A stretch of 64,000 nt of DNA, taken from contig MU001673.1 of NCBI GenBank assembly GCA_010093515.1, positions 1,311,320-1,375,319 on the forward strand, given 5' to 3'. Shown here piece by piece: positions 53,044 through 59,949 of this stretch (position 1 is its first letter; every line of letters starts with the position of its first letter). A program made the translations under genes and the position numbers. This DNA comes from Lineolata rhizophorae (taxonomy: Eukaryota > Ascomycota > Dothideomycetes > Lineolatales > Lineolataceae). The notes beneath the pieces were generated by a model, which had not been told where the DNA came from, made no database searches, and saw only the letters and a program-made list of their open reading frames with translations.

Positions 53044-54446
53044 ATGCCGCCACCATGCACGCGCTGTCAATCCGAACGGGCAGTCATCGTGAGGCCCAAA
53101 AATTATGACAAGCTATGCAAAACCTGCTTTCTTGAGGTCTTCGAGGCCGAGGTGCACAAGACGATCACGACGAACGCGCTGTTCTACCCCGGCGAGCGCG
53201 TCGCCATCGGCGCCTCCGGCGGCAAGGACAGCACCGTCCTGGCAAGTGTGCTGAAGACGCTCAACACGCGGCACGGCTACGGGCTCGATCTGATTCTGCT
53301 CTCAATTGACGAGGGTATCACGGGCTACCGCGATCATTCGCTTGAGACGGTCAAACGCAACGCGGTCCAGTATGACTTGCCGCTCAAGGTGCTGAGCTAC
53401 ACGGAGCTCTATGGTTGGACCATGGATCAGGTTGTCGAGCAGGTTGGGAAGAAAGGGAACTGCACATACTGCGGTGTCTTCCGGCGTCAGGCACTGGATC
53501 GCGGTGCGGCCAGCCTGGGCGTGCGCCACGTTGTGACCGGGCATAACGCAGACGATGTCGCCGAGACGGTCCTCATGAATCGTATTTGCTAAGTCACTCT
53601 TGACTTTCTTCGTCGGAAAGCTAACATAGTAGCACAGTGCTTCGAGGTGATCTCCCACGCCTGTCCCGTACTGCGTCCATCGTGACCTCCACCCCTTCTT
53701 CAGCTCAGACCGATATAAAGCGAAGCAAGCCGCTCAAGTACGCGTACGAGAAGGAAATCGTACTCTATGCGCACCATAAGAACCTTGATTATTTCAGCAC
53801 CGAATGCATATACTCTCCCGAGGCTTTCCGTGGCTCAGCTCGCACCCTCGTCAAGGACCTTGAGCGCGTCCGGCCGTCCTCTATCCTCGATATTGTGCGA
53901 AGTGGGGAGGATATGGCGACGCTAGTTCCGGCGTCTGTGGCTCCAAAGGCTGCGTCCGGACGCGAATCAAGGTATGGTGGTGAAAATGTTAGCGTCGTGT
54001 ACGATCTTGATGAAGGAACTGGGGGTTGCGGTAGTGCAAATGGTAGGGATTCAGGCGGCGAGATGGCAAGAATGGAACATCAGCTTCGAACCGATCAAAA
54101 CGCAGCAACCCATGGACTGGAAACTGAGGTTACAATGGCCTCTTTGGGAACGCCGACATCAGGCTCAAGCATAGCAGTTGGAGTTCGACCTTCGCATGTG
54201 CAGATGAAGAAAGCTAATGGGAAAGGGCTTCGTCAGCAGACTGCTGGAGCTTGCGAGCGTTGTGGTTATATTTCTAGTCAAGCTGTTTGCAAGGCTTGTG
54301 TTCTGCTCGAAGGGCTGAATAAAAACAGACCAAAAGCGAGTATAGGTATCGAGAAGACGAATGACAGCGAAACGTTAGATAAAGGCCTTGCCAAAGTAAC
54401 TTTAGCCGAGAAAAAGCGTCAGCAAGTGGCACAGACCGAATTGTAG
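53044..54446 (+). CDS. ncs6: Ncs6/Ctu1, cytoplasmic tRNA 2-thiolation protein 1
   Basis: Exons 53044-53581 and 53638-54446 give 448 residues. The N-terminal zinc site [14 protein letters not shown] with CKTCF is followed by the PP-loop SGGKDSTVL (about residue 58), [12 protein letters not shown] and [16 protein letters not shown] with the catalytic-type cysteines. [14 protein letters not shown] precedes the intron, and the second exon resumes [10 protein letters not shown]. The C-terminal zinc site is [16 protein letters not shown]. With Ncs2/Ctu2 and Urm1 it makes the s2U34 modification of Lys, Glu and Gln tRNAs. An insertion of roughly 95 low-complexity residues separates [11 protein letters not shown] from the C-terminal zinc site; many homologues are shorter there. 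Confidence 0.95.
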
Positions 54447-54913
54447 ATTGTAAGGTACATTTCTGAGATTTATAAGTACTGTGGAGCATCCATCGGGGGG
54501 CACACGGCAATCTACGCCATGTAACGCCTTAGTATTGAATAAACAACTGGGTCAATATTGCTCACTAGGATGAAGTGAATGGCAACCTCGGAACTGTTTG
54601 CTCCAGAAATATAAAACTTGTTATTCGCTGTTCCATCACTGACTTTGAATACCAATTCTAGTTCTTAAACTTTGAAATCGCTCTATATGATATAGCCTAT
54701 TATGGTAAGCAAGGATGCTTCATAGTTTGAAGATCTCGGCAATTAGCTGCAACCAATAGCGCGCACCCTCTGCGCACATGCTAAGACCCTTACTTTCAAC
54801 GTGAACTCCCGGAAACTGCTGATACTACCATGCTCTTTTCCGACTCAAACGCTCGTAATGCTGTCCCTAACTTGGCAAAACTAACATTCCGCGCTAGCTA
54901 GCGCGCATAGATC
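54447..54913. other. Intergenic region between ncs6 and the SET gene
   Basis: Tandem genes. AT-rich, with no coding potential or RNA gene recognised. Confidence 0.45.
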
Positions 54914-56462
54914 ATGGCGGAACCTATGAATCCCGGACCTCTCCACGAGGAGTTCATGGACTGGGCCAGGGAGAACGAGGTGCAAATCGACGGTATCGCG
55001 GCGGCAAAATTTAACGGCAGAGGAATAGGCATTGTCGCCAAAAACGATCTCAAGGTTTGATGAATCAAAGTTCTCGAATCGATTGTCTAAATTAATAACA
55101 GCAAGTAGGAGAACGAAAGAATACTGTTCGTACCAGAGAAGATGCTCTTCTCCAACACGGTATTCGCTCTCAAGGACTGGAGGATGACAAAATCTCAAAC
55201 AGTCCACGGGCGCCTTGCATCAAGGCTCGCCCTTACTCATCGGGACTCCAATGAAAATAACCCTTGTGATAATAAGTGGACAATGGTCTGGCCTAGCCAA
55301 CAGGAAATGGAATTGGCGATGCCAATATGCTGGCCACCTCCACTGCAAGAACAATTGCCGCCCTATGCAAAAAGTGAGTTACCTATATCAGCCAACAGTA
55401 TTTTAAATTTGCTAATCGGAACTTGGTGCATAGGTCTCCTTGACAAACAGAAGCGGAAATTTGACAAAGATCTGGCGGAATTCGAGAAAGACGCACCTCT
55501 AAATCTTCGTGATGTCTTCAAGTATTACTGGCTCGTGGTGAATACAAGATGCTTCTACTGGAACTATCCAAACCGGAAGGACGGCAAATTGATGGCGAAG
55601 CGGATCAAGCAAAATCCCGACGACGCCATGGCTTTGGCACCGTTTATCGACTACTTCAATCATGCGGACGAAGGGGTGAGTTGTCCTCATTGCGCTTGAA
55701 TGTGTTCCGCACTTTAAGCTAGCAGCTGCTAACCCGCATAGTGCACTGTTATGGCAACTGAAGATGGGTTCACTGTGAACGCGAACAGGTATTACAGTAA
55801 GCTAAGGTGGAAAGAATCGACCAATTTACTCTCTCTAACAAATCATAGAAGCAGGGGAGGAAGTTTACGTCAGCTACGGATCCCATAGCAACGATTTCCT
55901 GCTTGTAGAATGTACAGCTCAAAGGCGTTCTAGTATTCAGGCGAAGAATAGGGGCTAACATCTTCTAGATGGCTTTATTCTCGAAAACAACAAATGGGAC
56001 GAAACAATACTCGACACATGCCTAATTCCGATGCTTAATGATGAGCAAAAGGATAGACTTGAGTCTCACGGTTTCCTGGGGTAAGTTCTATTTTGCAGGA
56101 GTTCATAAGTAGCCAGGAACTAGGGCTCCACTCATATGTTTCTTAAACATAGGAATTATACTCTGGACGCCTCACAAATTTGTTATCGAACCCAGGTTGC
56201 ATTACTGGTACTGGTTCTACCTGCTAAAGAGTGGCTTTCAGTCATCGAGAAGGGAGAGGATGTGGACCAAAATACCGTGAAGGAGCCATGCAGAGACCTT
56301 CTCTCAAGATATATTGTCAAAATCGACAAAAGCTTGGCTGGTCTCAGGAACGCGCCTGGGAATCAGCGGCGTCAAATCCTCATTGCAAGATGGAGGCAGG
56401 TTCGCCGGCTTGCAACAATTCATCTTCAAAAGGTCGAAGAGAGAGAGTCCGATATGACCTAG
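54914..56462 (+). CDS. SET-domain methyltransferase, Rubisco-LSMT/SETD-like class
   Basis: Seven exons, 54914-55054, 55109-55373, 55434-55675, 55742-55796, 55849-55911, 55969-56080 and 56153-56462, give 395 residues. The split SET domain starts with [20 protein letters not shown] and [12 protein letters not shown]. It has the inserted helical region ([18 protein letters not shown]), then the catalytic core [11 protein letters not shown] (NHxxx) and [20 protein letters not shown] with the conserved YGxxxN-type segment and Tyr. The C-terminal half ([16 protein letters not shown] ... [13 protein letters not shown]) resembles the Rubisco LSMT substrate-binding domain. Relatives methylate lysines in ribosomal proteins (yeast Rkm enzymes) or other non-histone proteins; the target here is unknown. 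Three exons are 55-112 nt. Confidence 0.9.
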
Positions 56463-56626
56463 CAAAGGTTAAATAAGGGATAATTAAAAAGAGAACCTGT
56501 TGCTTGGAATTGACACGGTTGTTCTACATCAGCCTAGGTCTAGAGTGCATCTGCTAGTATTGACTACCACTTTACCCGGGCTTCTCTTGTAGGTAAACAT
56601 CGGTACAACTCTCAAATTAGAGCGCG

Positions 56627-58888
56627 CTACCATTCTTCCGCAATCTTTTTCATTTCGGCCCATGCATCTGATTGTAGTGATCCTGCTTTGACAGCTTCCT
56701 TGAGTGCGTCAAGCCGCTCGTACTTCTCATTGTCCATTGACTTCTTCAGTACTTTAAGTAGCTTTGGCACGAATTGCCCTGTGGCGTACACAAGACCATC
56801 GTGACGTTTGCTTAACAGCACAACCATCAACGTCAGAAACAGCTTCGGCGCGTCTGTATCGCTATTCATGCTTCTTATCATGTCATGGATTAATGATTCC
56901 TTTCCCTCTACTAGGTCAGCTTCGTTTGGCGCTTTGACGTGTAGTTTTGCAGCAAAATGATCGTGTAATTTGTGAAGAGCTTGCAGATCCACTGATACGT
57001 CGCCGTTGCGGGTTTTCGAGCACTCTTTCACTCCAGCGCGCAGCTTCTCAGTCTGTTTCCTCGCCGTCGCACTTCGAAGGAGCCTTTTAGCAGCAACTTT
57101 GTTGATGTGATCGGGAATCATGTCCTTTGTTACGTAGGTAAATAGTAACTCCTTCAGCTGCGTTTGAAGCTTTGGCTCTGCATCTATCGTGGTAAGGCCT
57201 TGTTCGTAGAGTCGTAGTCGAAGGAGCACTCTGTCGCGCCAGAAGATAGCGAGTTGGGTATCCGCTTCCGCTTCCAACTCTGAAATCTGCTTTCGGAAAC
57301 AGCTTTTGATTCCCGTTTCCAGTTCTTGAGTAGAGACTTGTTGGACAATTGCCATGGGGAGGTTTAGTGTGTTTGCAACGCTCTCCATTATCTGTTCGAT
57401 GTTGATTGTACACTCTGTGCTGGTTTTTGGTGGGGCCTGGTCCCATTGTTCGTGCGCCTGCTGTATGGTTGCATCAAAAAGGCGCTGTGGCGCTTGATTG
57501 AACTGGTCTTTGCGGGTGAAGAAGGGATATATCTCTTCAATACCGGTTGTATCCGCGTCCGTGCCTAAAAACTCTTCGATCTTGTGACCAATTACTTCAA
57601 AGACCCTTTGTTTCCAGTCCTCTGGTATCGGATCCAGGAGATTCTTGGGGCATGTGTCAGTTATATCGACTAACCTGGAAGAATGGAATAAACTTACAGC
57701 GAGATTTGCAAACCCTTTTTCAGCAACTTCGACTCTGCATTCCTCAACAGCGTTGTCGAACCATGCCCGCGACACAATCGAATCCCCAAGGAATATGGTG
57801 TCCTTCGCTCGACTCGACAGGTAGTCCCATATGTCCTCTTCTGGAGTTCTAAACAGGTCATCGAAAGTAGACTTCAGGTAGTTCACTGTACAGAAAACCA
57901 TTTCGCCGGAACCAAGTTTGTCGAACAAGCTATTGAGTTCTTTCTCAAGATAGGTTTTCGGGACAAACCTGGGAAATTCGGTATCCATCTCCTCGACGCT
58001 GCCGTAACCTTTGAACTCTTCTTTTTCTGCCTGCAGTTCCTTGGCGACTAGAAGAACTAACTCTTTGAAAACTTCGGATTCGGGATCTTCAGTATGGTAT
58101 GAAAGAGTTTTTGGCCTATAAAGTGTTATTAGTTGGATATTTAGACGTGTCGATCTCCATAGTACCCACGTAGCGATCTCATGTGCCTCTACCATGGTGT
58201 TTGCAATGAATGCTTTAAGTGTTTCGATGAAATTTTCCTTAATGAAGTAGTCTGCTGGGTCGCCCCGGAAATTCCGCATATAATAATTGAATCTGCCATC
58301 AGTGTCGAGTTCTGGGGCAACTCTGGCACGCAGACTGTTCTCGTTTAAGTTGTACTGTCTCGCTACTGAAGCGTGAGACCTCACGGTACGGTTCAACTGT
58401 TCGTTGATACGCTGTATAATCGAATCTTCTTCGGACCTGTAACGGTTAGGGAATAGGTCTACAACTTCTGGAATTTTGTAGTGCAAATGGGAATCTACCG
58501 ACCTTGAAAGAACAATATCGGGATCTTGACCGCGAAGGATTGGCGGTGAGAGACGGTGTAGATAAATAGAGATAGAGATAGTTGGCAGACTGATTTCTCT
58601 AGCTAACTCACTGAGTCTCAGCCGACCATCTGAAGAAAACGGACTAGAATCAGCAATTTGCAGAAGCATGTGAACAACCCATTGTGACCATCGGGCCGGC
58701 GTGCAAGACCTTATAGGGAATGTAACTTAAACTATACCTGAACTGGATAACTTTTCTTCAAGATACTGTGGAATCCAAGAGGTCTTCACAAAAGCATTTT
58801 GGGAAGTGTTTGGTGTTAGATCTCGCGATGTAGGCGGGAAGGTCGAAAAAATTTCTTGCAAGTCGATAGGAGAGAACATGTCCTCCAT
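56627..58888 (-). CDS. UFL1-like protein (E3 UFM1-protein ligase 1 family)
   Basis: Proposed exons 58767-58888 and 56627-58709 (minus strand) give 734 residues. The long second exon has features I align by eye with UFL1. One is GRLRLSELAREISLPTISIS, against the winged-helix segment GRVNIVDLQQVINVD. Another is IIQRINEQLNRTVRSHASVA with RQYNLNENSLRARV, against the next winged helix. FVPKTYLEKELNSLFDKLG begins the region that matches FVPDIY in UFL1, and SSRAKDTIFLGDSIVS follows like KKRYKTTQLLFLKAACVG. The C-terminus (LFLTLMVVLLSKRH, ATGQFVPKLLKVL) parallels the UFL1 end. UFL1 attaches UFM1 to ribosomal uL24 at the ER, with DDRGK1. Similarity is patchy, and a fungal-specific scaffold is the alternative. 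The first exon (MEDMFSPIDLQEIF) and its donor (gtatct) were chosen for phase; the frame stays open further upstream. Confidence 0.55.
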
Positions 58889-59380
58889 TTTCGCCCCACT
58901 AGGGGCTTGCCTAATAGCAAGTCGAATCTTGCTGTTCTGGCATCCGAAGTTGTAGGCTCTAAGTTCAGCTGGGGAAAAGGCGTTGGTCGTTTGACCAATG
59001 TCTCCGGAATAGCGAAGGGGCTGGTTCGTCTGCCAGTCGCCAAGTGAAAAGCCGCCTCAAACTGCACATAAAATAGAAGAACAAATCTCAAGCAACAGGG
59101 CTCATCGATAGGATAATTTGCTGCTGAGACGAATTTTTGATTTCTAGAAAAACGCCTCGGGATCCCGTGCTGACGTGGATGGTTGTAGGAGGAGGTCAGG
59201 TTAGCACAGAACGCGAGGAAGAATTATAACGGTGCCACGCTAAAGCGCGATAATATCGCTTGGCCCTGCAAGCCATAGGGCTGCACGGATCACGACGGAG
59301 CGAAAGACCAGTTCCTATCACGCGCAACTCCTCCAGCCACCCGGGCGTCATCACCTTCGCACCCGCCAAACCATTCCATA
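58889..59380. promoter_or_regulatory. Bidirectional promoter between the UFL1-like gene and mitochondrial uS14m
   Basis: 492 bases between divergent starts. The UFL1-like frame is open upstream to about 58985, where ttttccccag could be a splice acceptor, so a further 5' exon may lie here. Confidence 0.45.
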
Positions 59381-59949
59381 ATGGCACCATTCCGGGCGAA
59401 GAAGCTCGATTTGGGCTGCTTCGTCAATGTCATGACGATGCGCGATCACACGAAGCGCAAGGTATTCGCCGAGAACGAGGTCGAACGGTGAGGGCCGCTT
59501 CCTTTCCCCGTATCCATTTTTGTCACCTCATGCTCGCCCGGTAATTGCAAGAATACGTACATGGTAGCCGGGTCTAATGGGATTGCTGGCTGACGACTGC
59601 GGATCTCGCTAGGCAAGCGCTGCGATACATTACACGGAACACGACCCTCCCTCAGCGTGTGCGCGCACAGGCGCAGCTACAACTCACTCAGATGAACTGC
59701 TATACGCGGTACACGCAGATCAAGAACCGGTGTGTGATGGGTGGCAAGGGGCGTGGCGTGTTGAAGGATTTCAGAATGTCAAGGGTAAGCATGACTTTCG
59801 CGGATTGCCTGGGCGGCTTTGGCACTCTGTTCTATCACATGAACCCCGGAAGAATATTTTGTGCTAATTGGGCTTGCCATATACAGTTTCAGTTCAGAAT
59901 AAATGCTTTGCGCGCCAATCTTCCGGGGGTAAAGAAAGCGAACTGGTAG
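59381..59949 (+). CDS. mrp2: Mitochondrial small-subunit ribosomal protein uS14m (Mrp2)
   Basis: Exons 59381-59487, 59613-59784 and 59887-59949 give 113 residues, the expected length. It starts MAPFRAKKLDLGCFVNVM, then RDHTKRKVFAENEVERQALR (spliced), YITRNTTLPQRVRAQAQLQL, NRCVMGGKGRGVLKDFRMSR and the invariant end RINALRANLPGVKKANW. This is the bacterial S14 family without its zinc cysteines, imported into mitochondria. Splice sites are all canonical. Confidence 0.97.

Follow-up and report, generated by a model that had tools for sequence, protein, structure and literature searches.

A diverged UFL1-like gene in an ascomycete genome in which no UFM1 pathway was detected

Does an ascomycete keep a relative of UFL1, and what would such a protein do there? 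Ufm1 is described as missing from fungi in the available text of PMC4327156, and the same is stated in the consulted portion of PMC4092871. According to the accessible part of PMC10183829, fungi lost UFM1 and C53, certain fungi retain components of the pathway, and UFL1 and DDRGK1 are frequently retained without UFM1, which suggests further functions. The question is raised here by a gene in a window of 64,000 nucleotides from Lineolata rhizophorae, the window being the whole stretch of DNA that was analysed. The initial annotation had noticed a UFL1-like protein in it and proposed that either the pathway persists in this lineage or the protein was kept for a UFM1-independent scaffold role.

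The UFL1-like gene at 56627-58888 of the minus strand is real and consists of a long frame and a short first exon. The minus strand is open without a stop over 56627-58669 (680 residues), and the ATG at 58888, the first in the upstream open stretch, opens the short exon. Several candidate introns could link the two. The initial annotation used the intron 58766-58710 (acceptor AAG), giving a product of 734 residues; judging from the alignment with human UFL1, we prefer the intron 58737-58630, which gives a predicted product of 717 residues. The N-terminal region of the 717-residue model scored 47 against human UFL1 28-130 (reached by 11/500 shuffles), compared to 34 for the 734-residue model against human UFL1 28-120 (matched by 108/300 shuffles) and 38 against human UFL1 60-180 (66/300 shuffles). 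The intron 58766-58710 is probably wrong on this comparison, which has to be read with a predicted gene model and with an intron chosen partly for improving that same alignment. In the preferred model, exon 1 (58738-58888) encodes residues 1-50 and the first base of codon 51, with the start codon at 58888-58886. The 108-nt intron (58630-58737) has the donor GTATAG, a branch-like GCTGAT and the acceptor TTTTCTTCAG, all identified by eye, and exon 2 (56627-58629) runs in an open frame to the stop codon.

The profile of the UFL1 C-terminal region, UFL1_C (PF25041, Pfam curated cut-off 24), matched the 680-residue frame with 26.1 bits (E 7.8e-6), the 717-residue product with 25.9 bits (E 8.9e-6; residues 637-704, encoded at 56669-56872 of the minus strand) and the C-terminal 121 residues with 29.5 bits (E 6.9e-7). 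Genome-wide (30,968,845 bases, 48 contigs), the gene at 56627-58888 was the sole UFL1_C match. The UFL1 likeness that had been noticed by eye is thus above chance. Unrelated NCBIfam models scored up to E 0.0012 on the same protein. The UFL1 N-terminal domain model PF09743 (E3_UFM1_ligase) gave no match at E up to 10 on the whole protein or its pieces, an absence to be read in the light of the HMMER filters, which discard most matches above E of about 0.1; in the genome search it gave 0 matches, despite the UFL1-like gene being there. The middle domain model PF23659 reached 15 bits (E 0.033, cut-off 27) on one sub-piece and was absent from the whole-protein match lists of the 680-residue frame and the 717-residue product. 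Only weak HTH-type matches appeared in the profile scan of the product and its pieces, and phmmer against PDB chains did not return human UFL1 for the fungal protein. Because PF09743 finds nothing, assignment to the UFL1 family is based chiefly on the C-terminus.

Four segments of the fungal protein (anchors) were colinear with human UFL1: residues 33-108, 272-381, 522-592 and 642-690 aligned with human residues 56-128, 244-333, 551-631 and 679-728 respectively. Their summed score was 182, compared to a shuffle mean of 133 (sd 10), and was reached by 0/500 shuffles; this last figure is optimistic, as the four anchors were picked after viewing the alignments and the intron partly by alignment gain. 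The human order was kept in 13/500 shuffles, and the reversed protein gave a sum of 136 with the order not kept. The score of the C-terminal anchor (human UFL1 650-760) was reached by 0/300 shuffles, and that of the FVPxxY anchor (residues 272-381, encoded at 57638-57967 of the minus strand, aligned with human 244-333; score 43) by 7/300 and 4/300 shuffles with two choices of the human piece. The third anchor (human 540-660) was equalled by 30/300 shuffles, and the reversed protein scored 42 against 41. The first anchor, covering the surroundings of the first winged helix (58457-58792, minus strand, spanning the intron), is weak alone: against human UFL1 1-120 and 1-250 the reversed protein scored 51, compared to 43 and 47 for the real one. 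The regions that the initial annotation had aligned by eye fare unequally: the C-terminal region holds, the FVPxxY match is present, and support for the two winged-helix segments is weak. Whole-length pairwise alignment with human UFL1 was weak, with a z of 3.5 for the local and of 4.2 for the global alignment, each exceeded by the highest-scoring of 200 shuffles, and hhalign of the two single sequences gave E 0.12, at the C-terminus. Judged from its sequence, the protein is related to UFL1, a relationship that is well supported at the C-terminus and weakly in the rest of the protein.

The C-terminal piece also matched PSMD12-CSN4_N weakly (14.5 bits, cut-off 27, E 0.028). This would fit another PCI/winged-helix scaffold, of the kind found in the proteasome lid, CSN or eIF3; the likeness of its C-terminal helices to UFL1_C would then come from a distantly shared fold. 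The PCI subunits of the proteasome lid, the COP9 signalosome and eIF3 have the same winged-helix and helical architecture, and the winged helices of UFL1 are themselves called PCI-like (both in the available part of PMC9627666); a protein of this kind would also agree with the silence of PF09743. However, on the same C-terminal piece UFL1_C is above its cut-off with an E value about 40,000 times smaller (6.9e-7 vs 0.028), leaving the PCI match far weaker, and the remaining three anchors follow the UFL1 order. We regard a scaffold of this other type as quite unlikely.

The structure predictions speak neither for nor against the UFL1 relationship. AlphaFold without relatives gave a mean pLDDT of 39.0 for 693 residues and 52.7 for the C-terminal 261 residues, and these single-sequence models are too poor to judge the tandem winged helices by. 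Foldseek of the C-terminal 261-residue model against the PDB returned 113 matches with an E value of 10 or less, 0 of them at E ≤0.001; UFL1 was not among the best 50 of the 113, the query being a low-confidence single-sequence model. One scan of viral contigs gave 2 pattern matches and one scan of prokaryote genome contigs gave 28, with 0 confirmed as relatives in either.

Human UFL1 (E3 UFM1-protein ligase 1; PDB 8ohd, 8qfc), which the fungal protein resembles in UFL1_C and in the four colinear segments, offers a list of parts to look for. Its partial winged helix pairs with UFBP1/DDRGK1, a complex broken by L45R (PMC9627666, available part), and its N-terminal helix binds UFC1 (I8, F15, Q19; accessible text of PMC10937380). 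An 88-residue loop (388-476) enters the peptidyl-transferase centre (PTC), and the C-terminal domain fills the tRNA sites, or tRNA-binding groove, of the 60S subunit (both in the consulted portions of PMC10937380 and PMC9627666). The first winged-helix match of the fungal product has about 32 residues ahead of it, compared to 55 in human UFL1. The three-frame translation of 58738-59420 contained no peptide like human UFL1 20-60 (score 20; 263/300 shuffles as high). With a short N-terminus and no upstream peptide, the partial winged helix around Leu45 was not found in the predicted gene model. The fungal N-terminus is short and hydrophobic, and when residues 1-60 are compared with human 1-80, the best alignment omits the hydrophobic part. 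An Atg8-interacting motif at the N-terminus was considered and rejected, as 17.3% of 1000 shuffles have one within their first 30 residues.

The PTC loop was not found either. The interval between the second and third anchors is 141 residues, compared to 218 in human UFL1 (77 fewer), and that between the second and the fourth, a stronger anchor than the third, is 261 compared to 346 (85 fewer). Nothing as basic and glycine-rich as the human stretch was seen in the protein, whose highest K/R/G count over 40 residues is 13, compared to 25 in human UFL1. The DDRGK1-docking partial winged helix and the PTC loop thus appear to be missing, a reading conditional on the gene model and on how the sequences are aligned. 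Compared to human UFL1, then, the fungal protein has no recognised PF09743 domain and apparently neither the UFBP1-docking part nor the PTC loop.

Next, we analysed the UFM1 pathway by six-frame profile searches of the source genome (31 Mb). With E values of up to 1 allowed, no match was obtained for UFM1, UFC1 or CDK5RAP3. The DDRGK profile had one match (24.1 bits, below the cut-off of 27.8), which was rejected as DDRGK1 because the frame is RPN6-like, a proteasome-type subunit named by eye. Peptidase C78 matched a single gene, in two pieces. This gene (L020, about 95-2299) carries two zinc-finger-like motifs together with a very long run of aspartates; it was rejected as UFSP2 by eye, as the motifs give it the look of a ZUFSP-type deubiquitinase. 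For Aspergillus nidulans, the available text of PMC6627422 states that no ZUFSP was identified. Among the 15/15 ThiF matches inspected by eye no UBA5 was recognised: 11/15 correspond to seven genes (Uba1, Uba2, Uba3, Aos1, Ula1, Atg7 and Tcd1) and 4/15 to dehydrogenase- or oxygenase-like frames. This is a weaker negative, since Uba4 was also missed.

Uba4, the E1 for Urm1, was not recognised by eye among the 15 ThiF and 7 rhodanese matches, yet Urm1 and a Ctu1/Ncs6-like gene (window 53047-54446) are present. The pathway negatives are accordingly imperfect, as the six-frame search also missed Uba4. Diverged pathway genes can escape a search of this kind, and UFMylation could persist with UFM1, UFC1, UBA5 and DDRGK1 too diverged, split by introns or unassembled. 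Such persistence would agree with the missed Uba4, which Urm1 and the Ctu1-like protein imply, and with the 0 matches of PF23659 in the six-frame genome search; moreover, the 14 control genomes of the search tool are prokaryotic and UFM1 itself had no positive control. The RPL26 tail (L004 1456-1827, minus strand) ends in GREAVKKGKMVA (KKGKMVA), retaining KGK, which would also agree with persistence. Against this, UFM1 is described as highly conserved (consulted portion of PMC4092871), Urm1 and RPL26, similar in size to UFM1, were each recovered in two pieces by the same search, UFM1, UFC1 and CDK5RAP3 were all unmatched, and the DDRGK1-docking part appears to be missing. We consider persistence very unlikely, and the first proposal of the initial annotation finds no support.

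The RPL26 tail itself was dropped as a test of UFMylation. In the alignments with 5 of 56 sequences, KGK is also present in two plant-type RPL26 sequences and missing from the aligned part of the closest PDB sequence. The best PDB match among those aligned is 7r81, from Neurospora.

The neighbourhood of the gene bears on its constraint. Within 54000-59000 of the window, GC is 0.445-0.480 over the UFL1-like gene and its neighbour, compared to 0.494-0.566 in the surrounding kilobases. A GC content below the surroundings, together with the high divergence from human UFL1 and the apparently missing modules, is what would be seen if the gene were a UFL1 remnant under weak constraint, drifting towards loss. 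However, the low GC extends over the neighbouring gene too, and the gene keeps a 680-residue frame without a stop and a plausible intron. We judge a drifting remnant unlikely.

Several further genes were observed. A uS14m-like gene (a mitochondrial ribosomal protein, by eye) starts at 59381 of the window on the plus strand, 493 bases from the UFL1-like gene and divergent from it; it is possible that the two share a promoter. At 54915-56462 of the plus strand lies a multi-exon gene whose product looks by eye like a lysine methyltransferase with a SET domain, of the Rubisco-methyltransferase type. Arb2, Tsr1/Bms1, Sec2 and a Ctu1-type zinc ribbon are matched by neighbouring frames (Ctu1 was also recognised by eye), a set that, like the RPL26 match to 7r81, agrees with a fungal source, although these neighbours are not specific to fungi. 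A 589-residue frame in L024 resembles a CoA-disulfide reductase that carries a rhodanese domain and has a bacterial look, possibly through transfer or contamination.

The gene probably encodes a diverged UFL1-family protein kept in an ascomycete-type fungus after the loss of the UFM1 conjugation system; it may have a UFM1-independent role in recognising 60S subunits or another partner. Of the two original proposals, the UFM1-independent role is favoured: colinear similarity to UFL1 is present where no partners were detected, and the role itself is inferred. The conjugation system would have been lost and a diverged UFL1-family protein retained, in which the helical C-terminal region and parts of the winged-helix array were kept, and from which the partial winged helix for UFBP1/DDRGK1 docking and the PTC loop would have disappeared. 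Needing no modifier, such a protein would bind free 60S subunits at their intersubunit face, or a different winged-helix partner, and would act as a recognition or anti-association factor. The 60S-binding step is drawn from the structures of human UFL1. We do not class the protein as a UFM1 ligase, since searches for the docking part and for the pathway found neither.

That some fungi retain UFL1 in the absence of UFM1 has been published before. The present case resembles those discussed in the accessible part of PMC10183829 in that UFL1 is retained without UFM1 and a UFM1-independent function has been proposed; unlike the UFL1-DDRGK1 pair of that text, the fungus here has no detected DDRGK1, and the part of UFL1 that binds it is apparently missing. 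It also differs from the human UFL1 system, as no UFM1 pathway was detected in the fungal genome. No report naming an ascomycete UFL1 was found in the literature searched, as far as the text of these sources was available, and a database annotation may still exist.

UFL1 often survives the loss of UFM1, and its role in such lineages is open, according to the available text of PMC10183829. A fungus with a UFL1 relative and no detected modifier, E2 or DDRGK1 would make a UFM1-independent role testable without confounding ligase activity, and a UFL1-derived protein of this kind may act in such a role, perhaps on 60S ribosomal subunits. A bolder reading, which we put forward only tentatively, is that in an ascomycete lineage UFL1 became a 60S-binding factor that acts on its own, without a modifier, DDRGK1 or a PTC loop. 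If true, this would be a natural split of the ribosome recognition of UFL1 from its ligase role, and the function of the fungal protein would possibly be close to that of UFL1 relatives before UFM1 arose.
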